DNA of 64,000 bases, taken from positions 62,001 to 126,000 of the forward strand of contig NZ_MSXV01000052.1 in the NCBI RefSeq assembly GCF_001945395.1, given 5' to 3'. The DNA is from Pseudomonas sp. PA15(2017). Its GTDB lineage: Bacteria; Pseudomonadota; Gammaproteobacteria; Pseudomonadales; Pseudomonadaceae. This document shows, one piece after another, positions 9,361 to 51,968 of the stretch; within the stretch, counting starts at the first letter, position 1, and every line of letters starts with the position of its first letter. Below the pieces are notes generated by a model. It was given only the letters and a program-made list of their open reading frames with translations. It searched no databases and was not told the origin of the DNA. A program made the position numbers and the translations under genes.

Positions 9361-9404
9361 AACAGGGCGCTCTCCTGTTGGGGGCGCTCCTATCCTAATA
9401 GGAG
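9361..9404 (+). promoter_or_regulatory. RBS-sequestering leader 1
   Basis: Hairpin AACAGG/CCTGTT (9361-9366, 9374-9379) with loop GCGCTC able to pair with GGGCGC at 9382-9387; alternatively CTCCTAT (9387-9393) pairs with ATAGGAG (9398-9404), which holds the Shine-Dalgarno of the gene at 9412. Confidence 0.7.
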
Positions 9405-9411
9405 ATACGAC

Positions 9412-9879
9412 ATGTTCCTCAACAAAGCCCTATCACTGCCTACCACTGAGCTGCACCTGGTGCAGGATATTCTCGACGAAGCAATCGCCATGCACTCAGA
9501 TCCATCTGCGATCCGCGAGCAAGCGATCGACTTACTACAGCTCAACCTGCAGCAGCCTGAGTCTGCAGTAGTGGACAGGTTTGCAGCCATCGTGGACGAG
9601 CTGTTGGCTCACATGGCTATGCCGACCAATAAACTGATGCTGGCAATCGCACTACTGCGTGAGGCTGGCTTCGAAGAGGAAGCAGATCTGCTTAGACCAG
9701 CCATACCGGATCGCATGCTGCTCATTCGCGCAGCGCCAGGTCTGGAAAGCCGTCTGCGCGATATTTTCAACCACTGCCCAGCCTGCTCGAATTCAGAGCG
9801 GCATAGCCATGATCTAGCCTGGCGGGCTCTTGAACACCTCACCTTTAATGCTCGGTTCGGTTCCTCGAAGGCCTCCTGA
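9412..9879 (+). CDS. Hypothetical ICE protein
   Basis: 155-residue helical protein of unknown function. ATG 9412 is chosen because it has AGGAG 7 bases upstream inside leader 1; the frame extends upstream only through the leader. It is Leu/Ala-rich, with a C-terminal CPACSNSERHSHD stretch that might bind metal. It is the first gene of the leader-controlled cluster and is preceded by pseudoknot RNA copy A. Confidence 0.7.
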   Translation: MFLNKALSLPTTELHLVQDILDEAIAMHSDPSAIREQAIDLLQLNLQQPESAVVDRFAAIVDELLAHMAMPTNKLMLAIALLREAGFEEEADLLRPAIPDRMLLIRAAPGLESRLRDIFNHCPACSNSERHSHDLAWRALEHLTFNARFGSSKAS

Positions 9880-9899
9880 TCGACATGCTTACAAATCAA

Positions 9900-9955
9900 C
9901 CCATGCGGGAAGCTCCTTCCCATGGGAATGGGCTCTCCGCTATCAAAGCTGGAGA
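9900..9955 (+). promoter_or_regulatory. RBS-sequestering leader 2
   Basis: Two-part hairpin CCCAT/ATGGG enclosing GGGAA/TTCCC (9900-9926), loop GCTC complementary to GGGC (9930-9933); TCTCC at 9934-9938 can pair with GGAGA at 9951-9955, the ribosome site of ATG 9962. Confidence 0.65.
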
Positions 9956-9961
9956 ACAACC

Positions 9962-10297
9962 ATGACCCCATATGGCCACCTGTACGACGAACCACTGCTG
10001 GATCTGGCGGATCAGCACAACACCATTCTCGCTTGCATGGCTGAGCTCGGATGGACTGTTAACCTTGACACCAAGAATGGCAGACTTCACATAGGCGGTG
10101 GACGCTGCGGTGGTGCTCTGAACCCTCACGGAAATCGAGTCGTGGTTGCCGCGTTTGATCCGACTGACTTGAGATGGATGACCCTTCAAGTTGGGTTTAC
10201 CGATGCGTACGAACAGCGCATTTCGAACTTTCCAACAGCGCGGTCTTTCGCCCAGGCAATGCACAACGCCGCACAATCTCTTCCAATCGAATACTGA
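9962..10297 (+). CDS. Hypothetical ICE protein
   Basis: 111-residue protein of unknown function starting at ATG 9962, with GGAGA 6 bases upstream in leader 2. A beta-rich middle (GRLHIGGGRCGGALN, then NRVVVAAFDP) and a helical tail (SFAQAMHNAAQSL) can be seen. It is transcribed with its neighbours in the small-gene cluster ahead of DUF3577. No family is recognised. Confidence 0.65.
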   Translation: MTPYGHLYDEPLLDLADQHNTILACMAELGWTVNLDTKNGRLHIGGGRCGGALNPHGNRVVVAAFDPTDLRWMTLQVGFTDAYEQRISNFPTARSFAQAMHNAAQSLPIEY

Positions 10298-10335
10298 CCT
10301 GTTCCATGCCCCCATCAACGGTGGCTAAACAGGGC

Positions 10336-10364
10336 TTGACAACAATCTCGATTGCTCACATATT
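10336..10364 (+). promoter_or_regulatory. Sigma70-type promoter candidate
   Basis: TTGACA at 10336-10341, 17-base spacer, CATATT at 10359-10364. The expected start near 10371 would place pseudoknot RNA copy B at the very 5' end of the DUF3577 transcript. Copy D has a TTGACA at the same distance (47285) but no comparable -10. Confidence 0.5.
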
Positions 10365-10383
10365 TTTAGTCGTATGCCGCTGA

Positions 10384-10504
10384 CGTTGTCAGCAACATGC
10401 CCAGGCAGCGAGGATCTTCAAGCTGCGTCCGCTGTTGCGGTGATCCACCTCCCCAGTCCGTTTCGCATCCGGTAGTACGGACAATCGCCCCCGGCGATGG
10501 ATGC
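10384..10504 (+). promoter_or_regulatory. Pseudoknot RNA element, copy B
   Basis: Core 10456-10504: stem GTCCGT/ACGGAC, inner hairpin ATCGCC/GGCGAT, and loop GCATCC paired to GGATGC. An upstream domain has GGATC/GATCC enclosing a Pu/Py-rich arm. It precedes the DUF3577 gene; a motif called DUF3577 RNA has been described by comparative genomics, and identity with it is possible but unchecked. Confidence 0.72.
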
Positions 10505-10527
10505 CCTCTCTTCCAAACATCTACTCA

Positions 10528-10596
10528 CCCTTGCGGGAAACACACTCCCGCAAGGGATACGTGTTTCTCCGCTTTCCCGTACCTGGAATCTGGAGA
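10528..10596 (+). promoter_or_regulatory. RBS-sequestering leader 3
   Basis: Perfect 10-bp hairpin CCCTTGCGGG/CCCGCAAGGG (10528-10556) whose loop AAACAC is complementary to GTGTTT (10561-10566); TCTCC (10566-10570) can instead pair with GGAGA (10592-10596) before ATG 10603. Confidence 0.75.
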
Positions 10597-10602
10597 ACCA
10601 CC

Positions 10603-11103
10603 ATGACTACTACCAACGCTCAAAAAAGCTACTTCGACCTCCACATCACTGGCTTCGGCTACCTGAATCGCATCCGCGAAGTGCCCATCCGCAAGGGTGA
10701 CCCCTTCCTGGCCTGCGATATCGTCGCCCTCCATGGTGATGCTAGCGCTCCTGAAAAAACCCGGTTCGACTGCAAAGTCTCTGGCGGTGAAGCTGACAAG
10801 CTGATCCGTCGTTGCATGGCAGCCGTAGCAGCCGAAAAGAAAGTCCTCATCGGCTTCCGACTCGGCGACCTGACCCCCGATCTCTTCACCTACCAAGGTG
10901 GCGAGAAGAAAGGTCAACCCGGTGTCAGCCTGAAAGCCCGCCTGCTGTTCGTCAGCTGGATCAAGGTCGACGGCGAAATGGTCTACAAGGCAGAGCCGAA
11001 AGGTGATGCAGAACAACCACAACAAGCTCAGCAGCCCGCTGCAGAGCCGCAACAACCCGCACAAAGCAGCTCCCAGGAAACACCTGAAGCTGCCAGCTTC
11101 TGA
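10603..11103 (+). CDS. DUF3577 family ICE protein (STY4534 family)
   Basis: 166-residue protein of the DUF3577/STY4534 family, often labelled an ICE replication protein. The N-terminal two thirds (SYFDLHITGFGYLNRIREV, then PFLACDIVALHGD and TRFDCKVSGGEADKLIRR) look like an OB-fold-like beta domain; the tail is Gln/Pro/Ala-rich, reminiscent of the Ssb tail. ATG 10603 has GGAGA in leader 3. It has its own promoter candidate, pseudoknot RNA copy B and leader, so its expression appears strongly controlled. Single-stranded DNA or nucleic-acid binding is inferred from the fold pattern. Confidence 0.85.
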   Translation: MTTTNAQKSYFDLHITGFGYLNRIREVPIRKGDPFLACDIVALHGDASAPEKTRFDCKVSGGEADKLIRRCMAAVAAEKKVLIGFRLGDLTPDLFTYQGGEKKGQPGVSLKARLLFVSWIKVDGEMVYKAEPKGDAEQPQQAQQPAAEPQQPAQSSSQETPEAASF

Positions 11104-11149
11104 ACCACCGGCCCTCTCTGAGGGCCACCACTCAACTCAGCTAACCCAT

Positions 11150-11210
11150 CCGGGGGGCACCATCCCCCCGCTGGCGGGCTTGGTGTTCTCCAAAAATCCC
11201 TTTTGGAGAA
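11150..11210 (+). promoter_or_regulatory. RBS-sequestering leader 4
   Basis: Hairpin GGGGGG/CCCCCC (11152-11169) with loop CACCA complementary to TGGTG (11181-11185); TTCTCC (11186-11191) pairs with GGAGAA (11205-11210), the ribosome site of ATG 11216. Confidence 0.75.
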
Positions 11211-11215
11211 TCATC

Positions 11216-11353
11216 ATGAATAACGCCAACATCCAAGCTGTAGAACTGCCTGCTCTGCCGGAAGTCACCGAGATTTCCGAAAGTGACGCCCTCGAGGCCC
11301 TGCTCGATAACGAGCAGTTCTGCGAGTACGCATGGGCCGTCCTGGCCGCTTAA
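11216..11353 (+). CDS. Acidic 45-residue small protein
   Basis: 45-residue strongly acidic protein (VTEISESDALEALLDNEQ) starting at ATG 11216 with GGAGAA 5 bases upstream. It has its own structured leader and a terminator 11 bases after the stop, which argues that this short frame is truly translated. Function unknown; acidic small ICE proteins can be DNA mimics or antagonists, but nothing here proves that. Confidence 0.65.
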   Translation: MNNANIQAVELPALPEVTEISESDALEALLDNEQFCEYAWAVLAA

Positions 11354-11364
11354 TGTCTGACCTC

Positions 11365-11384
11365 AAGGCACCTTCGGGTGCCTT
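11365..11384 (+). terminator. Rho-independent terminator
   Basis: AAGGCACC-TTCG-GGTGCCTT (11365-11384), a tetraloop hairpin followed by TGTCTTCTT. It ends the DUF3577 unit. Confidence 0.75.
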
Positions 11385-11408
11385 TGTCTTCTTCGCTTAG
11401 GAGTCCAT

Positions 11409-11642
11409 ATGGCCACTGTAGCCCTGCTCCAGAAATCTACTCGCAACAAATCCACTGAGGACGCTTTTGACTCTAAGGGCTTCGGCATGACCCTTCGCAC
11501 TGTCTACAAACTCACAGTGCTTGCTGCTAACGGCTGCTATTTCGCGCCTCGTTACGTCAATGTCCGCGCTTTGATGCTCGATGGCGACTCGCAGTGCCTG
11601 TACACACCGATCCGCTGGCTTGCCTATGAGGTGATCGCATGA
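11409..11642 (+). CDS. Hypothetical small ICE protein
   Basis: 77-residue protein; ATG 11409 has AGGAG 6 bases upstream but no structured leader, unlike its neighbours. It is mainly beta-like (TLRTVYKLTVLAANGCYF). The stop overlaps the next start (ATGA), implying coupled translation. Function unknown. Confidence 0.6.
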   Translation: MATVALLQKSTRNKSTEDAFDSKGFGMTLRTVYKLTVLAANGCYFAPRYVNVRALMLDGDSQCLYTPIRWLAYEVIA

Positions 11643-11788
11643 TCCGCAAATTCGATGTGTATCTTGAAGGCGCCTATTGCCTTTCTGTTCGTGCCCAATC
11701 TGAGCAGGAAGCACGCCGCACTGCCTGCGAAGCAACTGGTTGTGACTATGACGATGCCGCTCTTGAGCTTTTCGAGGTGTTCGAATGA
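11639..11788 (+). CDS. Hypothetical 49-residue protein
   Basis: Short frame MIRKFDVYLEGAYCLSV... ending in an acidic LELFEVFE, beginning by ATGA overlap with the preceding gene. It has the beta-strand then helix look of a small real protein (SEQEARRTACEATG). Too short for a family call. Confidence 0.5.
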   Translation: MIRKFDVYLEGAYCLSVRAQSEQEARRTACEATGCDYDDAALELFEVFE

Positions 11789-11893
11789 TCGCCCTACCCT
11801 CTCAATCCACCTTTGAGTGTGGCTGATCTGCACAATGCCCCGAAGTTGCGTCGCGGACAGCGATACATCTGATGGATAGCTAAATCGACAGCC

Positions 11894-11910
11894 GGGCGCC
11901 TCTGGCGCCC
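11894..11910 (+). terminator. Hairpin, probable terminator
   Basis: GGGCGCC-TCT-GGCGCCC (11894-11910) followed by TGACTTTTCC, about 105 bases after the last small gene and just before leader 5. Confidence 0.5.
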
Positions 11911-11922
11911 TGACTTTTCCCA

Positions 11923-11971
11923 CCTGGGGCAATGCCCCTTGGGTAATTGCTCCTGGCTCTACAATGGAGCA
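11923..11971 (+). promoter_or_regulatory. RBS-sequestering leader 5
   Basis: Hairpin GGGGC/GCCCC (11926-11938); GCAAT (11929-11933) is complementary to ATTGC (11946-11950), while TGCTCC (11948-11953) pairs with GGAGCA (11966-11971), the ribosome site of ATG 11976. Confidence 0.65.
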
Positions 11972-11975
11972 GCCC

Positions 11976-12692
11976 ATGTCCCATTTCCCCAACCCATTCC
12001 TCCGCGGCTTTTACAGCTTCACGATCGAACGTCAGCTGCAGATATTTCGGGAAGCCGATCAGCCGACGATCTTCCGCCCACTCCACCCCAGTCAGGGAAA
12101 CCTGACGGATGAGATGGTCAATCGCCACCCCTGTATCTACTCGTGTGACTTCGCGCTTGTAACTGAGGGACAGGAAATTACACCCGAGCTCGAGGAGCAC
12201 TTCCATGGCAGCGGTGTCGCCTGCAGAGTCACCTACTCGTTGTTCGGACACCGGGAATCCACATCGATCTTCCTCGGCGACTACGACAACTTCGCCCTGG
12301 CCATGGCCATCAGCGAGCAGCTGACGTTCAGAACGGGGCACTTCAGCCGCGCCTGGGAAATCAGCAGTCTTCATCTGCCCGAGAAAGCTCTTGAACACGC
12401 CCAACGGTTGGCCGGTTTCGAAATTCCCAGCGGCCAACTTGTAGAGTTCTTCTTATTGCCTGGCTGCGATGGTGTTGGGTGCAAGCTGTTCATGACACCC
12501 TGGAGCGACGAGAATCTTGCCGGTCTTGGGCTAACAGCTGAAAAGCTGCGCCAGGAACATCTGGATAATGGACTCCACCTGAATCTGATCGAGCTGCTCC
12601 ACCAGGCAGCTGCCGCAGACGTGCGCTTCCTGGTCTTTGACCCTGATGCGGATCGGCTGCAGGATCTGCCAATTTACGATCTAAAGGGCTAA
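11976..12692 (+). CDS. Hypothetical ICE protein, possible DUF5983-like C terminus
   Basis: 238-residue acidic soluble protein. ATG 11976 is preferred over ATG 11964 because TGGAGC of leader 5 lies 5 bases before it. The C-terminal end (AAAADVRFLVFDPDADRLQDLPIYD) resembles the tail of DUF5983-type ICE proteins; this is a weak pattern match. No catalytic motif or membrane segment is seen. It is followed by pseudoknot RNA copy C. Confidence 0.65.
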   Translation: MSHFPNPFLRGFYSFTIERQLQIFREADQPTIFRPLHPSQGNLTDEMVNRHPCIYSCDFALVTEGQEITPELEEHFHGSGVACRVTYSLFGHRESTSIFLGDYDNFALAMAISEQLTFRTGHFSRAWEISSLHLPEKALEHAQRLAGFEIPSGQLVEFFLLPGCDGVGCKLFMTPWSDENLAGLGLTAEKLRQEHLDNGLHLNLIELLHQAAAADVRFLVFDPDADRLQDLPIYDLKG

Positions 12693-12711
12693 GATCATTA
12701 ACACAGTGCGC

Positions 12712-12839
12712 CATCGTTGATGGCACCTGCCCAAGCTGCTCGAACCTGTAATGCAGCGCTGCCCCTGGCAGTGGTTCATCCCAAGCCCAAACCTGTTTCG
12801 CATCCGGTAGGACAGGTGATCGCCATTGGCGATGGATGC
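12712..12839 (+). promoter_or_regulatory. Pseudoknot RNA element, copy C
   Basis: Core 12791-12839: stem ACCTGT/ACAGGT, inner hairpin ATCGCC/GGCGAT, loop GCATCC paired with GGATGC. In the upstream domain GAAC/GTTC replaces the GGATC/GATCC pair of copies B and D, a compensatory change. Confidence 0.72.
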
Positions 12840-12855
12840 CCGCTAAACAACCACC

Positions 12856-12903
12856 CCTTCGGGAGCTTCACGAAGGAGGCCTCCCGTTTAATTTCTGGAG
12901 GTC
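12856..12903 (+). promoter_or_regulatory. RBS-sequestering leader 6
   Basis: Hairpin CCTTCG/CGAAGG (12856-12876); GGAG at 12862-12865 is complementary to CTCC at 12881-12884, and GGCCTCC (12878-12884) alternatively pairs with GGAGGTC (12897-12903) before the start. Confidence 0.65.
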
Positions 12904-12907
12904 TATG

Positions 12908-13147
12908 ATGAAAGCAGCAATTACGCTGTATGACGCGCTGGTTTCCGCCAATGTCCCAACCGATAAGGCCAAGGACGTGGTTGAAGCCTGGGAGAAAGAC
13001 ATGGAAAACCTGGCCACCAAGCAAGATCTGCTTGGACTTGGAGAATCGCTGAAAAGTGACTTCAAAGCCTTGCTGTACCAAGCCATGTTGCTTCAAACCT
13101 TAACAATGGCAGGTGTGTTCATAGCGGTCATCAAACTGATCAACTAG
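12908..13147 (+). CDS. Small membrane-anchored coiled-coil protein
   Basis: 79-residue protein: an N-terminal helical region (ALVSANVPTDKAKDVVEAWEKDMENLATKQDL) and a single C-terminal membrane helix (AMLLQTLTMAGVFIAVIKLI). This looks like the short DUF1640-type coiled-coil membrane proteins. ATG 12905 directly adjoins and would add one Met; GGAGG of leader 6 serves either. Function unknown; the next gene is also a coiled-coil membrane protein. Confidence 0.65.
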   Translation: MKAAITLYDALVSANVPTDKAKDVVEAWEKDMENLATKQDLLGLGESLKSDFKALLYQAMLLQTLTMAGVFIAVIKLIN

Positions 13148-13173
13148 AAACACACAGCTCACACTTCCAAGTA

Positions 13174-13232
13174 CCTCGCGGGAATCACTATCCCGCTAGG
13201 GACAAGTGATTCTCCGCTTCCTGGAGAATCAC
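13174..13232 (+). promoter_or_regulatory. RBS-sequestering leader 7 (clearest copy)
   Basis: Hairpin GCGGG/CCCGC (13178-13196) with loop AATCACT (13183-13189) perfectly complementary to AGTGATT (13205-13211). The overlapping GTGATTCTCC (13206-13215) forms a perfect 10-bp pair with GGAGAATCAC (13223-13232), which ends one base before ATG 13234. The two pairings exclude each other. Confidence 0.8.
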
Positions 13233-13233
13233 G

Positions 13234-13848
13234 ATGAAAACTGCAAACCTCGTTGCTTTCCTTGCCGCTGCCCGTTCCGGACAGTTCCTGGAAGTCGATA
13301 GCGCTGTACTCGAGCAATACGACCTTGATGGGTCGGTGCTTCACCTAACAGTCGACGAGCTCGCTGACCACCTGGTTGCACTGCACACGCAGATGCAAGC
13401 AGAGCGTCTGCAGGCCGAGCTGCAGATCCACAACCAATCTCTACTCAAGATCGAGCAGTTGCAGCGCGAAGTGGAAACCCAACGTGCCAAGCTGCAACAC
13501 GAGAAGGACTGGGCGGATAGCCAGATCCAGGCTCTCACTTACAAGTGCGAGCAGTACGAAGCCATCCTGCCGGGTCTTTCCCAAGGGAATACTCGCTGGA
13601 TGTCATTTCGCACCTGGTGGTGGGTGATTGGACTGCTCTTCCTCGCATTGTGGGCTTTCAAGTCCGACTATGCGGTCGACAGTCTGATTTTCAGCATCGG
13701 CTGGATCGGCTCTTACTCGGGAGTGTTCCTGGGCAAGCTATTTCGCTTCCTCGGCCAACCTCTGCGGGAGCTCATTCGTATGCCGGCACTACGTTGCCAC
13801 GCACCTCGGCTTGAACGGAAGGCTCAACAACCGTTTCGAGTCCTATGA
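13234..13848 (+). CDS. Coiled-coil membrane protein
   Basis: 204-residue protein starting at ATG 13234 directly behind leader 7. Residues 45-110 form a long Gln/Glu/Leu-rich coiled coil; two hydrophobic segments follow (WWWVIGLLFLALWAF, then a second around IFSIGWIGSYSGVFLG), and the tail is basic. Location is probably the inner membrane. Function unknown; a terminator with TTCG loop follows, so it closes the small-gene cluster before the pilus operon. Confidence 0.7.
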   Translation: MKTANLVAFLAAARSGQFLEVDSAVLEQYDLDGSVLHLTVDELADHLVALHTQMQAERLQAELQIHNQSLLKIEQLQREVETQRAKLQHEKDWADSQIQALTYKCEQYEAILPGLSQGNTRWMSFRTWWWVIGLLFLALWAFKSDYAVDSLIFSIGWIGSYSGVFLGKLFRFLGQPLRELIRMPALRCHAPRLERKAQQPFRVL

Positions 13849-13863
13849 TTCAACCTCTACCAC

Positions 13864-13886
13864 AGGCGCCTTCGGGTGCCTTTTTT
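13864..13886 (+). terminator. Rho-independent terminator
   Basis: AGGCGCC-TTCG-GGTGCCT (13864-13881) followed by TTTTT. It separates the small-gene cluster from the pilus operon. Confidence 0.85.
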
Positions 13887-13896
13887 ATGACTCGAA

Positions 13897-13928
13897 ATTA
13901 ATTCTCGGCGTTGGGATTTGGATTCTTC
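13897..13928 (+). promoter_or_regulatory. Transfer-operon promoter-like motif, copy 1
   Basis: ATTAATTCTCGG followed after a spacer by TTCTTC, whose last base is 59 bases before ATG 13988. It is the least exact of four copies (others at 31337, 39576, 41826), all at nearly the same distance from a start codon. The 5' leader also contains GTTGC/GCAAC (13932-13955). Confidence 0.5.
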
Positions 13929-13987
13929 ATTGTTGCCAGGGCGTGCGGGAGCAACCCTATGCACCTATCGAAGTTGGAGATCCCCCA

Positions 13988-14989
13988 ATGCGCCATCCCC
14001 TGCTGCTCACGCTTGTCATTGCGACAGCAGGTTGTGCTGTTCAGCGACAACCTGTCCCAGCCGAGGCTGAAGAAGCTCCCGCCAATCCCGTGTTCATCAC
14101 TCCAGACATCTACGCGAACAAAGAGTTAGGGATGAACCGCGAGGGGGATCTGGTCAGGAACGGCCGGTACACGCTGAAGAGCACCACTCCTACTATCGCC
14201 CAGGAAGACCTGATGGCTCAGATCATCGAGGTGACGATTCCTGGGTCGTTGAAACCGACAGTCGGGGATGCCCTCAAACATGCCCTGTCACGCTCGGGAT
14301 ATGCACTCACGGCTCCCAATAACACCACAAAAGTTCTCTTCAGCCGCCCTCTGCCAGCTGCGCACTACAACCTGGGACCAATGAAGCTACGCGACACTCT
14401 CCAAGTGCTCGCAGGGCCGGCATGGAAGGTTCAAGTTGATGAAGTCACACGCCAAGTGGCTTTCAGCTTACGTCCAGGCTATCAGGTACCGGCGCAACAA
14501 CGCCCCCGTTCTCCTGCGGCGGTCGCGGGAACCCCTGTCGTAAGCCCACCGAAGGCTGTAATCATCTCGACGGCACCGCCCAGTACATCCGTCACAGCAA
14601 CTGCCTCGGCTGATCACCTTGATGTCGAAGTTGCCAAAAGTGGCAGCACAGGTGCTACGCCTATTCCGGCTTCTTCAGCCACGGCTGCCATCGTGAGTGT
14701 TCCCCCTCCAGCGCCTGCCTCGAAACCACCTACGCAAATCTGGTCGGCGGAATCGGGCTCAACCCTACGTGACTCAGTCGAGGCCTGGGCGGAGAAAGCT
14801 GGTTGGACATTGATCTGGGAACAAGACGATCTGAACTACCCCATCGTGGCTCCGCTACGGTTTGAAGGGTCATTCCAAGAGGCAATCGATCAGGTTTTCC
14901 CGCTGTACGACAAAGCTCCTCGATCATTCGTCGTCGATGGAAGCTCGTCACAACGATTTGTACACATCGCCGAGAGGAAGAAGAAATGA
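13988..14989 (+). CDS. pilL: Type IVb pilus lipoprotein PilL
   Basis: 333-residue conjugative pilus protein. A lipoprotein signal ends at ATAGC/A-type lipobox (IATAGC), so the mature protein is probably anchored to the outer membrane. An N-terminal PilL-type domain (VGDALKHALSRSGYAL, KLRDTLQVLAGPAWKVQVD) is followed by a Pro/Ala/Ser linker and a C-terminal TcpQ-like domain (LRDSVEAWAEKAGWTLIWE). ATG 13988 with GGAG 8 bases upstream is used; the open frame further upstream crosses the terminator. It is the first gene of the pil operon and overlaps pilN by ATGA. Confidence 0.88.
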   Translation: MRHPLLLTLVIATAGCAVQRQPVPAEAEEAPANPVFITPDIYANKELGMNREGDLVRNGRYTLKSTTPTIAQEDLMAQIIEVTIPGSLKPTVGDALKHALSRSGYALTAPNNTTKVLFSRPLPAAHYNLGPMKLRDTLQVLAGPAWKVQVDEVTRQVAFSLRPGYQVPAQQRPRSPAAVAGTPVVSPPKAVIISTAPPSTSVTATASADHLDVEVAKSGSTGATPIPASSATAAIVSVPPPAPASKPPTQIWSAESGSTLRDSVEAWAEKAGWTLIWEQDDLNYPIVAPLRFEGSFQEAIDQVFPLYDKAPRSFVVDGSSSQRFVHIAERKKK

Positions 14990-16809: not shown

Positions 16810-16819
16810 CGGGGGCCGA

Positions 16820-18719: not shown

Positions 18720-18729
18720 GGATACGAGT

Positions 18730-41053: not shown

Positions 41054-41063
41054 GGAGGCGGCG

Positions 41064-45202: not shown

Positions 45203-45208
45203 CTATAA

Positions 45209-45233
45209 AATCCCCAATTCAACATTGGGGATT
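45209..45233. terminator. Hairpin between convergent genes
   Basis: Perfect 10-bp inverted repeat AATCCCCAAT / ATTGGGGATT (45209-45218, 45224-45233) just after traG, facing the DUF3742 gene; no long T-run. Confidence 0.6.
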
Positions 45234-45327
45234 AACACCATAAAGATAGCGGCCCGTTATCAATCATCACCATCCATTCGAGGTCTTCACCGATCTCAGA
45301 CCATGTTGAGCGCATAGTCGATCTGTC

Positions 45328-45702: not shown

Positions 45703-45747
45703 TTCAGCTTGGCCTCGCAACGAAAATTTCTGATTCCATAGTGCCAC

Positions 45748-46076
45748 ATTTAGGCCAGGCTAGCCAAACAGTCAAGCGCATTTTCGGGGGGACGGCATAG
45801 GAACTGATGCAGTAACCAATACGACGAAATCCTTTACAAAAAATTTCCGACGCACAAACACAAATACGCGCTATCAAAATCACCTCAAGGCCCGGAAACA
45901 CTGGATTCTTGAAGCAGGTATTTATCATTTGCTGATACCAGATAATGAAGATACACACATCATAACGTTACTAAAGCAATTGCAATAGTAAAACACACGC
46001 AAAACTGTAGCTTGCAGTACAACTTCTGACATGCGTGAATAGCCTACCCCGCCCGCCTACAGTACAGGACAGCAGT
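45748..46076. other. AT-rich divergent promoter region
   Basis: About 330 bases rich in A+T between the leftward DUF3742 gene and the rightward membrane-protein gene. Short frames in it are unconvincing. It should hold both promoters; no operator repeat is obvious. Confidence 0.45.
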
Positions 46077-46481
46077 ATGTACGCTCGTAACGTTGACCCT
46101 TTTGCCTTTGTAGTCGCAATCGCCCTCGGCATCTTCGCCCTGATAGCGTTTAAAATCGCGCAACTTCTTGGATCCGACTATATATTAACGCTGGAAGCTT
46201 GCGCGTTAACGATACTTGCTCTCGCAGGCGCGGCATTTATGCCTTTCGTTTTCGGAGTACTGCGCCGAAGGTATACCGTTGGTTTCGCGGTCTGGTGGTC
46301 GTATACATGTTGGTTCGACGTCATCCGTAATATTGGCGAGAAATATGCCGAGGCCTCTGCAGAATATAGTTTTGGCGGTGCAGAGTTACCATTTTGGGCG
46401 ACAGACTCATTCCTATACGGGAGCGCTGCCGTCTTGGCGGTAGTTATCATCGTCGCTCTGAACAAGAGCAGCCGCTATTGA
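46077..46481 (+). CDS. Hypothetical membrane protein
   Basis: 134-residue inner-membrane protein with four hydrophobic segments (FAFVVAIALGIFALIAFKIA, ACALTILALAGAAFMPFVFG, VGFAVWWSYTCWF, FLYGSAAVLAVVIIVALN). ATG 46077 is chosen; GTG 46035 is possible. Base composition is lower in G+C than the ICE backbone, suggesting separate acquisition together with the flanking AT-rich DNA. Function unknown. Confidence 0.65.
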   Translation: MYARNVDPFAFVVAIALGIFALIAFKIAQLLGSDYILTLEACALTILALAGAAFMPFVFGVLRRRYTVGFAVWWSYTCWFDVIRNIGEKYAEASAEYSFGGAELPFWATDSFLYGSAAVLAVVIIVALNKSSRY

Positions 46482-46494
46482 AGTGAATGAAACG

Positions 46495-46511
46495 AGCTCC
46501 GGTTACCGGAG
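46495..46511. terminator. Hairpin between convergent genes
   Basis: GCTCCGG-TTA-CCGGAGC (46495-46511) between the membrane-protein gene and higA; probable bidirectional terminator without a T-run. Confidence 0.5.
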
Positions 46512-46539
46512 CCGTGTCAATGAGGCAATCTGCCAGGCT

Positions 46540-46902
46540 TCAGACCGCCGCAGGGAAAAGGCTTTCATAAGGAATTCTCAACCCGTCGTGAAGCCGCTTT
46601 ATCATGGTAAGACTCAGACCACGCTTGCCGTTTAGCACTTCTGAAACCCGGCCGCTCGAGCCGATGTAAGGCTCCAAGTCCCGAGGGGTCAGCCCCTGCT
46701 GATCCATGCGAAACTTGATCGCCTCAATGGGATCAGACGCCTTCATTGCGAAGTGCTGATCCTCATACTTCTCGATCAGTATCGCCAGGATCTCCAGCTC
46801 ATCACCTTCGGGAGAGCCAAGCTTGGCGCCCCACAGCTCATCTAGACGAGCCATCGATACCGCATAATCCTGCTCTGTACGAACCGGTTTGATATTCATC
46901 AC
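46540..46902 (-). CDS. higA: HigA-type antitoxin (XRE family)
   Basis: 120-residue antitoxin. The C-terminal half is a helix-turn-helix (RMDQQGLTPRDLEPYIGSSGRVSEVLNGKRGLS) typical of HigA; the N-terminal half (AVSMARLDELWGAKLGSPEGDELEIL) is the toxin-binding part. It is translated by overlap from higB and should repress the shared promoter. Confidence 0.9.
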   Translation of the reverse strand: MMNIKPVRTEQDYAVSMARLDELWGAKLGSPEGDELEILAILIEKYEDQHFAMKASDPIEAIKFRMDQQGLTPRDLEPYIGSSGRVSEVLNGKRGLSLTMIKRLHDGLRIPYESLFPAAV

Positions 46903-47201
46903 ACAGTCTCCGCATCAACTTTATCGTACTGGGCATGTGTGCCTACGAAACGCACCTTGGCCAATTGTCGGTCATAGTCAATGGCCAGAATTACCCGGTA
47001 CTTATTTCCAGCGATGTTGAACACAACTCGCCCACCTTTCAGAATGCTGGCCGTCCGCAACTCGGCTTTCAATTCCTGCGGCGTTCTGTATTCAGCCTTC
47101 TCCATGTGCCGGTACCACTCTGTCAGTGGCGCCTCGGCATCTGAATAGGTGGAGCTGCTTTCACCAAAACGCCTTAGCGTTCCACGCGCAATCACAAGCA
47201 T
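46899..47201 (-). CDS. higB: HigB-type toxin (mRNA interferase)
   Basis: 100-residue RelE-fold toxin expected to cleave mRNA on the ribosome. MLVIARGTLRRF is a standard HigB start, with GGGAG upstream; the longer frame back to 47291 has no support. The core GGRVVFNIAGNKYRVILAIDYDRQLAKVRFVGTHAQYDKVD matches the HigB family. Toxin-first order with 4-base overlap to higA is normal. It sits between the conjugation and leader-controlled clusters and may stabilise the element. Confidence 0.9.
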   Translation of the reverse strand: MLVIARGTLRRFGESSSTYSDAEAPLTEWYRHMEKAEYRTPQELKAELRTASILKGGRVVFNIAGNKYRVILAIDYDRQLAKVRFVGTHAQYDKVDAETV

Positions 47202-47330
47202 CCACGCCGCTCCCATTTTGGGAGAAATCAATCCGAACACCAATCCATCGCAAGCAGGCGTCTGCCTGCTCGAGGCAACGAGACTTGACACAAAAGCGCT
47301 GAGTCACGGAAGCTAATGCCGTGGCTCGCT

Positions 47331-47453
47331 GTCGTTGACAGCACCCGCCCAGGCAGCACGGATCTTCAAGCTGCGCCGCTCAGTCGGTGATCCACTCCCC
47401 CTAAGTCCGTTCCGCATCCGGTAGTACGGACGATCGCCATCGGCGATGGATGC
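47331..47453 (+). promoter_or_regulatory. Pseudoknot RNA element, copy D
   Basis: Core 47405-47453: stem GTCCGT/ACGGAC, inner hairpin ATCGCC/GGCGAT, loop GCATCC pairing with GGATGC. The upstream part closely repeats copy B (GCCCAGGCAGC, GGATCTTCAAGCTGCG, GGTGATCCAC) although 37 kb away. Confidence 0.75.
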
Positions 47454-47480
47454 TTCCTAAACCTCTGCTATTTCTACCTA

Positions 47481-47545
47481 CCCTCGCGGGGATTCACTCT
47501 CCCGCCTGGGCGACGTGCGTCTCCGTTTTTCCTATGGAGACTCAC
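47481..47545 (+). promoter_or_regulatory. RBS-sequestering leader 8
   Basis: Hairpin GCGGG/CCCGC (47486-47505) with loop GATTCAC partly complementary to GTGCGTC; GTGCGTCTCC (47515-47524) pairs 9 of 10 with GGAGACTCAC (47536-47545) next to ATG 47547. Closest relative of leader 7. Confidence 0.72.
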
Positions 47546-47546
47546 T

Positions 47547-47894
47547 ATGTCGTCTGCTCAATACGGCCCGCTTGCCCCTGCGGCTGCACGGATTCTGTCC
47601 ATGCCGGTAGTTTTTACCGACGAGGCGTGGCAACAGGCAGTCCAAACCATCCCTGTCGATAACATGACGGCCGACCTCGGCGATCGGCTCTCTTGCGCCT
47701 TGGCTGCAGCCTACAAAGCTGCATTGGTTGACCCTCACAAAACAGTCGTCTCTTTCGGCGTTCATCGAATGCCGCCGGATGGAGACATCAACAAACCGCT
47801 ATGGGTGGATTTGCAGGTCAGTCACCACGATGATCCGTTGCATACCAACCGTTTGCTCATTTCGCTGAAGCAGCCCCTGAGGCTCGAGGCCTAG
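47547..47894 (+). CDS. Hypothetical ICE protein
   Basis: 115-residue soluble protein with no recognised domain. The middle ([21 protein letters not shown]) is helical, and [29 protein letters not shown] beta-rich. It is the first gene of the second leader cluster, preceded by pseudoknot RNA copy D, leader 8 and (on the other strand) higBA. A terminator follows. Confidence 0.68.
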
Positions 47895-47920
47895 GCCCTG
47901 CTCGGCTCCTTTACACAAAC

Positions 47921-47953
47921 AAGCCCTGGCTCTCGCCGGGGCTTTGTTTTTTC
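47921..47953 (+). terminator. Rho-independent terminator
   Basis: AAGCCC.GG / CC.GGGCTT hairpin (47921-47944) followed by TGTTTTTT; it lies just upstream of leader 9. Confidence 0.8.
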
Positions 47954-47963
47954 CAACCACTCT

Positions 47964-48012
47964 CTGGGGAGGCATTCCCCAGGGGATGCCTTGCCCCGCT
48001 ATCCACAGAGGC
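47964..48012 (+). promoter_or_regulatory. RBS-sequestering leader 9 (upstream of radC)
   Basis: Hairpin GGGGA/TCCCC (47966-47980) with loop GGCAT complementary to ATGCC (47986-47990); GCCTT (47988-47992) pairs with GAGGC (48008-48012). Its position suggests the radC RNA motif described earlier by comparative genomics, not verified here. Confidence 0.65.
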
Positions 48013-48019
48013 TTACCTT

Positions 48020-48499
48020 ATGAGCGCTCAACTTAGTCTCGTCGAATCCAGCGAAACGATCAGGGAAAACCAGGTGATCGAGGAGGCGATGCAAATCCTG
48101 GATCGCCGCCTATTCAGTCGAGGCCCAGAACTAACCAGCCCCGACGATGTGGCGAACTACCTCAAGCTGAAACTAGCCCGCCTCGAGCACGAAGTGTTCA
48201 GTGTGTTATTCCTTGATGCCAAACACCGGGTGCTGGACTTCGAGACGCTGTTTTACGGCAGCATTGACGGCGCGTCGGTGTATCCGCGACAGGTGATCAA
48301 TCGAGCTCTGGCTCATAACGCATCTGCGGTCGTACTTGCGCACAACCACCCTTCGGGTTGCTCTGAGCCGAGCCAAGCAGATCGAACCCTTACTCTGACC
48401 CTGAAAAAATCCTTGGCTCTGGTCGAAGTGCGCTTGCTGGATCACATTATCGTCGGAGCAGGAAAACCTACCTCCCTGGCTGAATACGGCTGGTTCTAA
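48020..48499 (+). CDS. radC: RadC family JAB-domain protein
   Basis: 159-residue RadC-type protein with the JAMM metal motif [14 protein letters not shown] near residue 108, preceded by [15 protein letters not shown] and followed by DHIIVG and the standard end SLAEYGWF. It lacks the helix-hairpin-helix N terminus of chromosomal RadC, as usual for element-borne copies. Activity is uncertain in the whole family despite its DNA-repair name. ATG 48020 is behind leader 9. Confidence 0.93.
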
Positions 48500-48517
48500 A
48501 CGCTATCCATACCAGAG

Positions 48518-48568
48518 CCCATGAGGCATAGCCCTCACAGGGCATGCCTTCAAACTTACTATTGGAGG
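48518..48568 (+). promoter_or_regulatory. RBS-sequestering leader 10
   Basis: Hairpin GAGG/CCTC inside CCC/GGG (48518-48542); AGGCAT (48524-48529) is complementary to ATGCCT (48544-48549), while CCTTC (48547-48551) can pair with GGAGG (48564-48568) before ATG 48573. Confidence 0.68.
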
Positions 48569-48572
48569 ACAT

Positions 48573-49217
48573 ATGATCCGTATTGATGGTCAGCTGATCA
48601 TTAAATCTATTCTCGGCCGGTATGGCGCGTTCAACGTCGCTCACCTGATCACCAGTATTGGCGAGTACGCTGTCAAAGAGACCATGCTCGAGCAGTATGC
48701 CGAGGGGAAATACGAAGGTAGCTTCGTGATTTACCATATCGGCCCAGACTTCTATCCAGCCAGAGGCAGAGCGGTCTTCCAGGTGCGAGCCAGGATCGAC
48801 AGCATGACCCTCAACGAGATGGACACTCTGTCGCAGGCCGATACTGAACGGCTCGAACAGAGAGAACCAGACCTTCTGGACGAAGAACGAGGCAGTCCAC
48901 CGGTTACTCCGGCGACTGCTCCCGCCACACTTCCAGCAGCTGCTCCAGCTCCAACTTCGGCGCTCACTGGGCCCACGGTCGACGGCACGGAGCCTTTTGG
49001 CATGTCGGCCGCCGAACTGAACCAAACGCCTCAACCAGTCCATCAACAATCGATCCAGGCAGACGCTGACTTGTTCGGCACCATCTGGCCCCTAGGCGAG
49101 GCGGTGAAACTAGACACTACTGTTGACCGTCAGCGTCTACGCGAGCAATCCAAACGCCTGGATCAGCTCGGTTATACAATGGACTTCAAAGCCCAGCTCT
49201 GGCGCCTCGCCAGCTGA
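48573..49217 (+). CDS. DUF3275 family ICE protein
   Basis: 214-residue protein recognised as DUF3275: the N-terminal domain has IIKSILGRYGAFNVAHLITSIGEYAVKE and YEGSFVIYHIGPDFY; a Pro/Ala/Thr-rich linker covers residues 110-140; the C-terminal helical end contains RQRLREQSKRLDQLGYTMDFK. The family is restricted largely to ICEs beside radC; function unknown. GGAGG of leader 10 serves ATG 48573. Confidence 0.85.
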   Translation: MIRIDGQLIIKSILGRYGAFNVAHLITSIGEYAVKETMLEQYAEGKYEGSFVIYHIGPDFYPARGRAVFQVRARIDSMTLNEMDTLSQADTERLEQREPDLLDEERGSPPVTPATAPATLPAAAPAPTSALTGPTVDGTEPFGMSAAELNQTPQPVHQQSIQADADLFGTIWPLGEAVKLDTTVDRQRLREQSKRLDQLGYTMDFKAQLWRLAS

Positions 49218-49252
49218 TACCTGCCAGGCCACCTACCACAACATTCATCCCA

Positions 49253-49294
49253 GAGGGGCCTCCCCTCGGGGGCGCTCCTCGACTATCAGGAGCG
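49253..49294 (+). promoter_or_regulatory. RBS-sequestering leader 11
   Basis: Hairpin GAGGGG/CCCCTC (49253-49267); GCCTC (49258-49262) can pair with GGGGC (49269-49273), or CGCTCCT (49273-49279) with AGGAGCG (49288-49294), the ribosome site of ATG 49299. Confidence 0.68.
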
Positions 49295-49298
49295 ACAC

Positions 49299-49820
49299 AT
49301 GAATCCACTCTTCAAACATCTGAGCGCCGATACCCTCAGCGCCCTCGAGAATCAGTTGACCATCATCGACGACACCTCAGACGAGGAACTGTTCGACTTC
49401 CTCCTCGAGGAGCTCGACTTATCGGCCGAGCAAGCTGAAGCCGCAATCGCGCTGCGCCCCCAGTACATGGGGCGGCTCTTCCTCAACGGCAACAGCCCGC
49501 TGTACCAGGACACCCCTGTGTACGTCGATCCAGCTGCCGGTTTCATCTTCCACGGCCAGCTTACCGAGTACCAGATCCTGACGATCTACCGCATGCTGCT
49601 GGCCAGCCGCCACGGGACGCGCTTGAAGCTGAACGCTCACGAGTGCGCAGGCCTAAACAATGATGGTCAGCTCTACTGGACCCCCTACAACTCGCTGCAA
49701 CCCGGCACTGTGTACGAGGTATACGGCTTCGAACACCGACAGTTCGAGGACGGACACTGGCAAGGGGAGACCCTTGCGCAAACCACGGCCGCTATTCAGC
49801 ACCCTGAGTTCATCGACTGA
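49299..49820 (+). CDS. Hypothetical ICE protein
   Basis: 173-residue acidic protein of unknown function. The N-terminal third is very acidic (IIDDTSDEELFDFLLEELDL); later NAHECAGLNNDGQLYWTPYN is distinctive. ATG 49299 has AGGAG from leader 11. Same operon direction as DUF3275 and the methylase-like gene; the strong acidity recalls DNA-mimic proteins, without further proof. Confidence 0.68.
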   Translation: MNPLFKHLSADTLSALENQLTIIDDTSDEELFDFLLEELDLSAEQAEAAIALRPQYMGRLFLNGNSPLYQDTPVYVDPAAGFIFHGQLTEYQILTIYRMLLASRHGTRLKLNAHECAGLNNDGQLYWTPYNSLQPGTVYEVYGFEHRQFEDGHWQGETLAQTTAAIQHPEFID

Positions 49821-49834
49821 CACCACAACACCCC

Positions 49835-49884
49835 GAGGGGCTTCTCGCCCCTCAAGGCGGGCGCCCCTCCTCTTGCATTGGAGG
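49835..49884 (+). promoter_or_regulatory. RBS-sequestering leader 12
   Basis: Hairpin GAGGGG/CCCCTC (49835-49853, 7-base loop); CCTCC (49866-49870) pairs with GGAGG (49880-49884) before ATG 49890. The loop pairing is less clear than in other copies. Confidence 0.6.
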
Positions 49885-49889
49885 TTTCT

Positions 49890-50498
49890 ATGCCCAGCCC
49901 AACACAACTCTTCAGGATGGAGGAGTTCCCAGATCTGGCCGTCGACGCGTGCGTCTGCGATGAACAGCGCAACCTGGTCTTTCTATCAGCCTGGGGACGC
50001 GATACCGCGTTGCAGGAGTTCCTGGCCAGGCTGACCCTCGGCAGTGCCGAGAACGGCCTGGAGCAGTTCCACGTTGTCGCCGGTGGCCACAGCCTACCGG
50101 TGTTCCCGAATACTGATCTCCTGGAGAAGCGCACCACGCGCCAATTCAGGGGGACACTCTTCGGAAGCCTGTTGCACTGCTGGTTATTCGACCGGCGCTG
50201 CGCACAGCCGGACAAGGCCAATCACTTCGCCTATGCACTCCTGCAGCGCGAACGCACAGACCCTACCCAGCGGCTTTGGCCACTGGTGATGGAGACCTGC
50301 CCCCTCCCCCTCCTGCAGCACTGGCGTGAGCCGGTGATGGAGATCCTCACCCACCACGAAATGCTCGCCCCGCTTTCTGGGGCAGTTGGCGACGTCAGGG
50401 TTTGGCGCATCGCCCTGCAGCTCGACGTGCTCGAACCAACCCTCGGCGACCTCATTCGCCGCGGCCTTTTGACCACCGAGGCTCAGGCGATCGCCTGA
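49890..50498 (+). CDS. Hypothetical ICE protein
   Basis: 202-residue soluble protein, unknown family. Segments LLHCWLFDRRCAQPDKANHFAY and LRLWPLVMETCPLPLLQHW-like sequence in its middle are Trp/His rich. ATG 49890 is taken, with GGAGG of leader 12 five bases upstream. It is followed after 31 bases by the DUF6094 gene and is probably cotranscribed. Confidence 0.68.
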   Translation: MPSPTQLFRMEEFPDLAVDACVCDEQRNLVFLSAWGRDTALQEFLARLTLGSAENGLEQFHVVAGGHSLPVFPNTDLLEKRTTRQFRGTLFGSLLHCWLFDRRCAQPDKANHFAYALLQRERTDPTQRLWPLVMETCPLPLLQHWREPVMEILTHHEMLAPLSGAVGDVRVWRIALQLDVLEPTLGDLIRRGLLTTEAQAIA

Positions 50499-50529
50499 GC
50501 TGCCTTTCTACCTCACACAAGGAGGCCTC

Positions 50530-51762
50530 ATGGCCCTGATGTTCCCCCGCCTTGCGCGCAACTTCGCCCGCAACGGGTACTACCCCACCGACGAGATCAC
50601 CCTGGAGCGCATTCTGCAGGCGATCACCCCCGCTACCACCGGCCGCATGAGGATCTGCGATCCGTGCGCCGGCGAAGGAGTGGCGCTGGCCGAAGCCGCG
50701 CACGCTCTGGGACGTGACCTGGTCGAGACCTGCGCGGTCGAGTACGACCGTGAGCGGGCAGCACATGCCCGCACACTGCTCGACCGGGTGCTGCACAGCG
50801 ACCTGTTCGACACCATGATCAGTCGGCAGTCCTTCGGGCTGCTCTGGCTCAACCCGCCCTATGGGGATCTGGTGGGCGACCACTCGGGCGCCTCCCAGTA
50901 CCAGGGCAATGGTCGTCGGCGGTTGGAGAAAGCCTTCTACCAGCGCTGCCTACCGCTCCTGCAGTACGGAGGCACCCTGATTTTCATCGTGCCGCACTAC
51001 GTCCTGGACGACGAGCTCTGCGGCTGGCTGTGCAACCACTTCACCCAGCTGCGGATCTACGCTGCAGCAGACCCGACCTTCAAGCAGGTCGTGATCTTCG
51101 GCATCCGGGTACGGCGCCAGGATCTGGCCAGGCCCAGGGACGTTGCCCTTGTGCGTGATCGCCTGCAGGCGATCGGCGCCGGCCAGGAGTTGGCAGAGGT
51201 GCTACCAGAATGCTGGCCGTGGGAGCCGTATGCGGTGCTCTCGGCCAGCAGCGATATGGAGCACTTCTACCAGCTCACGCTTGAGCCGGAACAGTTCGCT
51301 GGCGAGATCCAGCGACTGGGGGGGCTCTGGCCCGACTTCACCCTGCACTTCGGACAGCCGGGTATTCAGCCGCGGCCGCCAGTACGGGAGCTGTCGCGCT
51401 GGCACCTGGCTCTGGCACTCGCCGCCGGCGCAATATCCGGCGTCGTAACTTCGCGCTCCGGTCGCATCCTGGTCTTGAAGGGTGACACCTACAAGGACAA
51501 GGTTCGCAAGACCGAATTCACCGAGGATCAAGATGGCAATGTCAGTGAGGTGCGAATCCTTACCGATCGATTCATCCCGATCATCCGCGCCTGGGAAATG
51601 ACCCCAGGCTCCCCCAACCACGGCAGGGTGCTGACCATCAGCTCTTCGCCGTCTACCAACGACGAGTCCCCAGCTCCGTTGCCGGCAGCCGCATCTACCC
51701 AGGAGAGGGAGACTGGGGGAACCTGTCCGACGCCGACTGGAACGCGAACCAACGAGCGCTGA
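50530..51762 (+). CDS. DUF6094 protein, N6-adenine methyltransferase-like
   Basis: 410-residue class I methyltransferase-like protein. SAM-binding motif I is DPCAGEG near residue 44; the catalytic-type NPPY follows near residue 108 (LLWLNPPYG), and AVEYDRERAAHA matches motif II. The C-terminal 150 residues form a separate domain with KGDTYKDKVRKTEF. AGGAGG precedes ATG 50530; this is the only gene of the cluster without a structured leader. It could methylate element DNA against host restriction; specificity is unknown. Confidence 0.85.
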   Translation: MALMFPRLARNFARNGYYPTDEITLERILQAITPATTGRMRICDPCAGEGVALAEAAHALGRDLVETCAVEYDRERAAHARTLLDRVLHSDLFDTMISRQSFGLLWLNPPYGDLVGDHSGASQYQGNGRRRLEKAFYQRCLPLLQYGGTLIFIVPHYVLDDELCGWLCNHFTQLRIYAAADPTFKQVVIFGIRVRRQDLARPRDVALVRDRLQAIGAGQELAEVLPECWPWEPYAVLSASSDMEHFYQLTLEPEQFAGEIQRLGGLWPDFTLHFGQPGIQPRPPVRELSRWHLALALAAGAISGVVTSRSGRILVLKGDTYKDKVRKTEFTEDQDGNVSEVRILTDRFIPIIRAWEMTPGSPNHGRVLTISSSPSTNDESPAPLPAAASTQERETGGTCPTPTGTRTNER

Positions 51763-51881
51763 GCCACACTGACCGGTTGTTCTCCAGCTACGACGTCGAC
51801 GCTGGCGACGAATCCAGGATCTGGATCATTACCGAGGCTGACCGGAGCGTCACAACACTTTTGCTGCCCAGCGACTACTGA
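51549..51881 (+). pseudogene. Open frame without a start codon (gene remnant or atypical start)
   Basis: In a frame overlapping the end of DUF6094, codons 51549-51881 run open to a TGA at 51879 and read like conserved protein (YPGEGDWGNLSDADWNANQR, then SRIWIITEADRSVTTLLL). No ATG, GTG or TTG occurs in it; only CTG and ATT are possible starts. Either a small ICE gene lost its start, it uses CTG, or it was fused by frameshift to DUF6094. Confidence 0.5.
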
Positions 51882-51912
51882 CCCAACCACCTTCCTTCCA
51901 CACCACCCTGCA

Positions 51913-51968
51913 GGGTATGCCGATCCCCTCTGGGATTCGTGCGTGCCCTGCTTTTCTACGGAGAAGCA
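51913..51968 (+). promoter_or_regulatory. RBS-sequestering leader 13
   Basis: GGGTATGC (51913-51920) is complementary to GCGTGCCC (51941-51948) around a small hairpin ATCCC/GGGAT; TGCTTTTC (51949-51956) can pair with GAGAAGCA (51961-51968), covering the ribosome site of ATG 51971. Confidence 0.65.

Follow-up and report, generated by a model that had tools for sequence, protein, structure and literature searches.

The window analysed here is a 64,000-nucleotide stretch of Pseudomonas sp. PA15(2017), positions 62001-126000 of contig 7 (NZ_MSXV01000052.1) in a 5.5-Mb genome, and it belongs to an integrating conjugative element (ICE) of the ICEclc/PAGI/pKLC102 type: PilL2 (TIGR03748), TraD (TIGR03754), TIGR03744, TIGR03755, TIGR03756 and TIGR03761 are above cut-off among its proteins, with a TraC-type ATPase and three "integrating conjugative element" families represented, and DUF3577, DUF3275 and RadC proteins are also encoded. 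Thirteen genes in two clusters (starting at 9412, 9962, 10603, 11216, 11976, 12908 and 13234, and at 47547, 48020, 48573, 49299, 49890 and 51971) are each preceded by an RNA leader, roughly 53-79 nt long, which extends as far as the AUG. An initial annotation had proposed leaders before nearly every gene at 9.4-13.9 kb and 47.5-52 kb, and all 13 were found; two genes within the clusters, at 11409 and 50530, lack one. Ten proteins of the leader clusters have no NCBIfam match above a cut-off.

A majority consensus of 76 leaders reads CCC-nn-CGGGG-loop-UCCCC-nnn-GGGG-nn-GGUG-nnn-C-n-C-linker-GGAGA-nn-CACC-AUG, with conservation restricted to the helix blocks and to the Shine-Dalgarno sequence (SD) and AUG. 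Four segments can be distinguished: segment 1 is the 5' arm of a hairpin with its loop (xCGGGGA-loop), segment 2 the 3' arm (UCCCC), segment 3 a strand mostly ending in CUCC, and segment 4 the SD through to the AUG (GGAGA..CACC-AUG). The hairpin, helix 1:2, is completed by a conserved CCC 5' of segment 1 and GGG 3' of segment 2; segment 3 may pair either with the SD region (helix 3:4) or with segment 1 (helix 1:3). Among 102 leaders there is also a U-rich linker between segment 3 and the SD, and a pyrimidine-rich stretch 5' of the hairpin; as a guess, these two could be sites for ribosomal protein S1 or a chaperone.

Leader 7 illustrates the competition. Its 1:3 helix joins 13178-13190 with 13204-13218 in 12 bp interrupted by a single bulge, with an energy of -19.4 kcal/mol; the hairpin has -9.1 kcal/mol and the SD helix -17.7. 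Across the 13 window leaders the 1:3 energy ranges from -10.9 to -19.4 kcal/mol. The pairs first quoted for this leader, AATCACT with AGTGATT and the contiguous 10 bp of GTGATTCTCC with GGAGAATCAC, are correct, and the loop pairs reported for other copies (AAACAC/GTGTTT, CACCA/TGGTG, GGCAT/ATGCC, GCAAT/ATTGC) can be read in the leader sequences. The scheme drawn from them, of mutually exclusive pairings one of which hides the SD, also stands, with one correction: the partner of the downstream strand is not the loop alone, but the loop plus the 5' arm of the hairpin, so that helix 1:3 competes with both 1:2 and 3:4.

Relatives were gathered via DUF3577 and DUF3275 proteins (a profile search of genome contigs with DUF3577 yielded only 12 loci), and their leaders were picked by a hairpin rule blind to 1:3 and 3:4: 363 candidate starts gave 360 sites, 160 leaders non-redundant at 80% identity, and 139 in which the full hairpin is followed by 12 nt or more, the set to which results below refer unless another is named. 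The rule passes nine of the 13 window leaders, all nine within the 139; all 13 were tested with hand-set segments. A consensus profile was made from the 102 of 139 with both helices in the predicted optimum, and a covariance model containing only helices 1:2 and 3:4, R1, from 76 of those 102. Run over the 64 kb at E <= 10, R1 gave 13 matches, the top twelve being twelve of the 13 leaders (six in its training set and six outside it, that of 12908 at just E 2.1), while 48573 was missed; the sole non-leader match is at 63553 (E 4), and at this threshold there was none in the conjugation block between the two clusters.

The leaders all lie on the + strand and are given here by their extent followed in brackets by segment 1, segment 2, the 1:3 partner strand, the SD, the R1 result, and the predicted 1:3 and 3:4 energies in kcal/mol. 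In the first cluster, leader 1 occupies 9357..9414 (9360-9373; 9374-9380; 9381-9392; from 9401; 23.5 bits, E 0.02, outside the training set; -15.5 and -7.4) and leader 2 9901..9964 (9906-9916; 9917-9921; 9929-9940; 9951; 32.5 bits, training-set member; -11.5 and -8.1). Leader 3, before the DUF3577 gene, lies at 10527..10605 (10531-10545; 10546-10553; 10560-10573; 10592; 45.4 bits, E 3.6e-6, outside the set; -17.9 and -12.7) and was also examined for covariation in 36 homologues; it is followed by leader 4 at 11145..11218 (11151-11163; 11164-11170; 11180-11192; 11205; 44.2 bits, member; -18.8 and -12.8) and, before a DUF5983 gene, leader 5 at 11919..11978 (11926-11933; 11934-11938; 11945-11954; 11966; 24.0 bits, member; -11.3 and -15.3). 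Leader 6, at 12854..12910 (12856-12870; 12871-12876; 12877-12887; 12897; outside the set; -12.0 and -14.1), is weak in R1 at 11.7 bits, and leader 7 ends the cluster at 13173..13236 (13178-13190; 13191-13196; 13204-13218; 13223; 37.3 bits, outside the set; energies as above).

The second cluster opens with leader 8 at 47480..47549 (47486-47499; 47500-47505; 47514-47527; 47536; 53.4 bits, member; -15.6 and -15.5), followed by leader 9, of a RadC-domain gene, at 47958..48022 (47964-47975; 47976-47982; 47985-47999; 48008; 21.5 bits, outside the set; -16.0 and -10.1). Leader 10, of the DUF3275 gene, at 48516..48575 (48522-48532; 48533-48537; 48541-48551; 48564; -10.9 and -9.1), is the one that R1 missed, and its outer start was set by hand 6 nt before segment 1. 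Leaders 11 and 12 lie at 49249..49301 (49253-49261; 49262-49267; 49270-49281; 49289; 20.4 bits, member; -13.9 and -12.5) and 49827..49892 (49835-49846; 49847-49853; 49858-49870; 49880; 33.0 bits, member; -17.2 and -9.2); leader 13, of an SNF2-type helicase gene and examined for covariation in 42 homologues, lies at 51905..51973 (51912-51925; 51926-51931; 51936-51950; 51960; 43.3 bits, outside the set; -19.1 and -11.4). With the first descriptor and 60 shuffles per leader, the observed score was reached four times at 9962, six times at 11976, seven times at 49890 and once at 48573, so individual significance is not reached by every leader; there was no solution at 51971, and no shuffle matched the score of the other eight.

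Do the leaders keep their pairings as their sequences change? The RNAduplex energy of each leader's own partners was compared with that of partners swapped in from other leaders. For the 13 window leaders, arm plus loop with the downstream strand gave -15.3 kcal/mol for own and -10.8 for swapped partners (z -5.5), and the downstream strand with the SD region -12.0 against -9.0 (z -4.3), neither reached in 5000 permutations. For the 139, own 1:3 partners gave -13.7 against -9.7 kcal/mol, a difference of 4.0 (z -19.0), and own 3:4 partners were better by 2.5 kcal/mol (z -12.5). The contact with the loop is the weaker part of 1:3, at z -7.0 by itself, with the arm alone at -11.8. Composition explains little of this, as reversed-strand controls gave z of -1.2 for 1:3, -2.1 for the arm and -2.6 for the loop (in the 160-leader set, -0.7 for 1:3 and -1.8 for 3:4), and swaps restricted to one locus, which remove differences in host composition, still gave -10.2 for 1:3 and -8.7 for 3:4 in 105 leaders, with the loop alone at -3.3. 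The earlier suggestion that complementarity is retained despite differing loop sequences thus holds both within the window and beyond it: two mutually exclusive helices, one of them burying the SD, are each kept by covariation.

The same duplexes bear on whether the selected structure is RNA or DNA. At least one G-U pair occurs in 116 of the 139 1:3 duplexes, which argues for the RNA level, as DNA inverted repeats would not preserve such pairs. Inverted repeats serving as operators for an ICE transcription regulator such as BisDC would recall the 27-bp promoter motif common to eight of nine bimodal ICEclc promoters (PMC9286271), and would have to accommodate leaders that precede genes within clusters, overlap the SD and differ from copy to copy; we consider this very improbable and reject it on the G-U pairs.

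The pairings replicate outside the training loci. At E <= 1, R1 gave 81 matches in ten further loci, the best 46 of which reduced to 37 non-redundant leaders; these gave z of -11.9 for 1:3, a helix contained in no model, and -6.2 for 3:4, with 1:3 at -7.2 within elements. In a rerun on all 81 (78 usable, 69 non-redundant) the arm and SD energies are distorted, and only the 1:3 and loop figures are meaningful. A second model, R2, was built without the window leaders from the best 150 of the 271 matches obtained by running R1 on 37 of 59 loci. Loci L150-L154 were chosen through R2 matches in their genomes, and are therefore selected for 1:2 and 3:4 and not for 1:3, while the loci of five named plasmids were picked by DUF3275 alone. 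Of the 37 test leaders, seven are more than 80% like an R1 training row and twelve like an R2 row; without the seven, the remaining 30 give -10.7 for 1:3 and -4.6 for 3:4, and the 22 leaders of the five plasmids alone -8.1 and -4.5.

Aligned homologues of single leaders point the same way. Across 42 SNF2-helicase leaders, 90.8% of the cells of the 1:3 helix are paired, as against 24-58% when it is slid (maximum 57.6%); 24 cells have both sides changed where shuffles give 6.3, the covariation score was reached in none of 500 shuffles, and hairpin and short SD helix are jointly 77.8% paired. In 36 DUF3577 leaders, the loop contact and SD helix are 92.3% paired, compared with at most 55.1% slid, with 28 doubly changed cells against 15.1 shuffled.

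Folding predictions add an order of events. As the transcript grows, the hairpin is predicted first, then 1:3, then the SD helix once the SD is out. In transcripts that stop short of the SD, 90 of the 139 leaders have 1:3 as their optimum (22-28 with hairpins swapped), and in the full transcript 3:4 is present in 116 (122-127 swapped); the full predicted switch is made by 72, against 16-25 swapped. In the 37-leader set, 1:3 precedes the SD in 29 (7-13 swapped) and 22 switch (6-10 swapped); of the nine rule-passing window leaders, eight have 1:3 before the SD and six switch, while for leader 3 the hairpin is predicted to persist at every stage. When the SD is forced open, folding gives 1:3 in 70 of the 139, and in the structures printed for the window under this constraint segment 2 is often paired with the GGG 3' of it.

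The end state, taken alone, would also suit static translation dampers, which would work through the hairpin and SD helix alone and owe any likeness between segment 1 and the SD region to descent, not to formation of 1:3: most full-length leaders (104 of 139) have 1:2 plus 3:4 as their predicted optimum, and the SD is costly to open (median 7.1 kcal/mol for the 13 leaders versus 3.7 for 17 other window genes; one-sided p 3.5e-4). We regard this as improbable, since 1:3 covaries more strongly than 3:4, including within one locus and outside the training loci, and the likeness of segment 1 to the SD region, if above that of swaps, is small (longest common word 3.62 versus 3.42; z 3.8).

The leaders are probably four-segment translational attenuators, with 1:2 plus 3:4 as the OFF state and 1:3 as the ON state. 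In the OFF state, the hairpin would form and segment 3 would pair with segment 4, burying the SD. In the ON state, segment 3 would pair with segment 1, with the loop as a likely toehold, displacing segment 2 (which could pair with the following GGG) and leaving the SD free. Transcription of segments 1-3 precedes that of the SD, which allows the ON helix to form first; once the SD has emerged, the folding predictions suggest relaxation to OFF unless the ON state is held, perhaps by a loading ribosome, by a host or ICE RNA-binding protein, or by speed alone.

Several results weigh against this reading, or limit its reach. The first swap test covered 381 gene starts, which were poorly called and had not been filtered for a hairpin, and gave a median percentile of only 0.46 for the loop pairing, and RNAalifold on a 150-leader alignment found just three pairs. 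For SNF2 leaders, just 63% of cells are paired in the SD helix as drawn (as read from the alignment, the register of this helix appears to differ between subgroups), and two of five measures are not above shuffles (45 and 54 of 500); in the DUF3577 family, further pair types are not above shuffles either (500 of 500 as high). Within predicted energies, which leave out pseudoknots, proteins and kinetics, opening the SD is only modestly cheaper than with swapped hairpins (6.8 versus 7.8 kcal/mol; lower in 84 of 139), so that 1:3 by itself may be too little to switch leaders ON. The hairpin is favoured over 1:3 before the SD in 46 of 139 leaders and 1:3 is already the full-length optimum in 17, which, with just 72 full switchers, means that the leaders do not all follow the scheme. 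The analysis brought up no trigger, ligand or protein, candidate proteins not having been searched for. Setting the small drop in opening cost beside the folding order and the buried SD of the end state, we favour an attenuator that would rest in the OFF state and be ON at an early stage or while something holds it there.

Other roles for hairpins in a polycistronic message need to be considered. Cutting at the hairpins to separate the genes would be in keeping with the transcript processing suspected for some ICEclc regions (PMC9286271); it would leave unexplained why the SD region is the competing partner and why 3:4 covaries so clearly, and seems quite improbable. Transcription attenuators or terminators are scarcely credible: terminator-like sites do occur in the clusters (for example at 11365, 13864 and 47921), and of 15 such sites four touch a leader, two of them on the + strand (47508, 49869) and two on the - strand (12866, 9979), but those four have stems of only 5-6 pairs, two being on the wrong strand, and the longer sense-strand sites (7-10 pairs) lie between genes, outside leaders, which end at the AUG. 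This candidate was rejected on the stems, strand and position of the sites. Terminator-like hairpins lie between cluster genes at 11365-11384 (8 pairs), 13864-13881 (7) and 47921-47944 (10). Leader-peptide attenuation was likewise rejected: a translated leader peptide overlapping the first hairpin occurs in four of 139 leaders, with 6.3 expected from shuffles, and so gives no signal.

The clusters also contain radC RNA (RF01754; listed in a table of PMC2864571), with which the initial annotation had tentatively identified the leaders. That identity can be ruled out. By cmscan (cut-off 40), radC RNA lies on the + strand at 10363..10504 (86.8 bits), 12694..12839 (60.8 bits) and 47310..47453 (83.1 bits), in matches of 142-146 nt that are separate from the leaders and end 22, 14 and 26 nt before leaders 3, 6 and 8, respectively; a degenerate copy at 9257..9343 (+ strand; 26.9 bits, below cut-off, with 46 mid-model positions skipped) ends 13 nt before leader 1. 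No RF01754 match falls on any window leader, and in a search of the whole window no Rfam 15 family reaches its gathering score on one. The matches below cut-off, at E up to 10, are mir-9279 at leader 9 (23.2 bits against a cut-off of 85), ftsZ-DE and sot0042 at leader 12, Histone3 at the edge of leader 4, and D12-methyl on the opposite strand of leader 3.

radC RNA is a different element, at the heads of clusters or operons. It shares ICEs and clusters with the leaders, but is an RNA of 149 positions, with four window copies (one degenerate) to their 13. Outside the window, 28 of 30 copies (20 + 10) end 8-42 nt before a leader match, one overlaps a leader match and one has none nearby; locus L103 has leaders and no radC RNA at cut-off. 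The leaders thereby give this orphan RNA a near-constant partner, and its operon-head position, together with the terminators, allows the guess that it is an antitermination element.

The leaders are found well beyond this ICE. The named carriers are pKLC102 and plasmids of P. veronii, Vibrio parahaemolyticus, Enterobacter ludwigii and the alphaproteobacterium Tistrella mobilis. Of the 14 R1 matches in pKLC102, 11 stop precisely at the start codon of an annotated gene; one of the remaining three is without an annotated gene, and two fall on the opposite strand. Among 299 genomes sampled across the phylum, with 16 candidates per genome scored by R2 and stricter filters that lose weak matches, at least 11 have matches at E <= 0.01, from eight genera and at least two classes. 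Five of the 271 R1 matches in 37 loci lie, by our reading of the table, on the strand opposite the rest of the locus, all at E > 0.6.

Some individual loci deserve mention. A good leader at 6676-6738 of the pKLC102 locus (L155; 34.1 bits) ends at an ATG with no annotated gene on that strand, a hypothetical gene being annotated opposite it at 6652-6831. The gene at 50530 in the window, of the DUF6094 family, has no leader match there, nor in pKLC102 (L155 11306); its homologues in several elements of other genera (L103, L104, L105, L109) have one. The DUF3577 match of L136 (G122:C1:1980815-1981183) has one internal TGA and is possibly a broken copy.

Within the window's own genome, seven of eight R2 matches at E <= 1, with 150 of 911 candidates scored, fall in this ICE. 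This confinement, and that of the R1 leaders to the two window clusters, would fit a dedicated protein or small-molecule ligand that reads the shared hairpin core and sets all leaders at once, as would the core itself, CCC-GGGG...CCCC-GGG, which is common to leaders whose loops differ. No aptamer-like conserved pocket is seen beyond the helices, and no search was made for candidate proteins; such a regulator is a plausible addition to which we would give somewhat less than even chances, and it extends the attenuator explanation rather than opposing it.

For ICEclc, the question has been how parts of the transfer programme stay silent in non-committed cells, and for two promoters the reporter output is reported not to match the coverage by transcripts, which is suggestive of post-transcriptional control (both PMC9286271). 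The leaders most likely form a second, translational lock on ICE core genes, acting gene by gene under a common rule; if translational control in cells, which we infer, is real, a switch on nearly every cluster gene would be a direct answer to that question. A bolder and rather unlikely extension is an element-wide code of translation while nascent, in which nearly every cluster gene has a self-contained strand-displacement switch, private in sequence, that is ON only during synthesis of its mRNA (1:3 forming ahead of the SD) and then closes itself, with radC RNA marking the operon head. If true, it would tie ICE-gene translation to fresh transcription, and leaky or old transcripts would be silent in non-committed cells.

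A literature search, mostly outside subscription papers and supplements, found no description of a DUF3577 RNA or of ICE leaders with an SD switch. The leaders are, then, a real and widespread RNA element, apparently undescribed as a family and unusual in occurring in one copy per gene. With hundreds of naturally occurring sequences that solve the same bistable folding problem, they are also of use for testing theories of co-transcriptional folding and for RNA design.

The principle of competing helices over an SD is itself already known. In erm-type translational attenuators the alternative helix is 2:3, and it is set by a ribosome stalled on a leader peptide; the leaders resemble these in having four segments, mutually exclusive helices and the SD in segment 4, and differ in that their alternative is 1:3 and shows no leader-peptide signal. 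Translational riboswitches and toehold riboregulators likewise have a platform that trades an anti-SD strand between two partners, and share the strand displacement from a loop toehold that the leaders would use; here no aptamer or ligand was found, and the sequences diverge between copies in one element. The nearest mechanism is the repZ/repA pseudoknot switch of IncI-type plasmids such as ColIb-P9, which serves one gene and depends on an antisense RNA as well as on a translated leader peptide. There too, the loop of a hairpin pairs with a remote strand close to the SD, in competition with a structure that hides it; the leaders differ in having no leader-peptide signal, and in being a module repeated before many genes.

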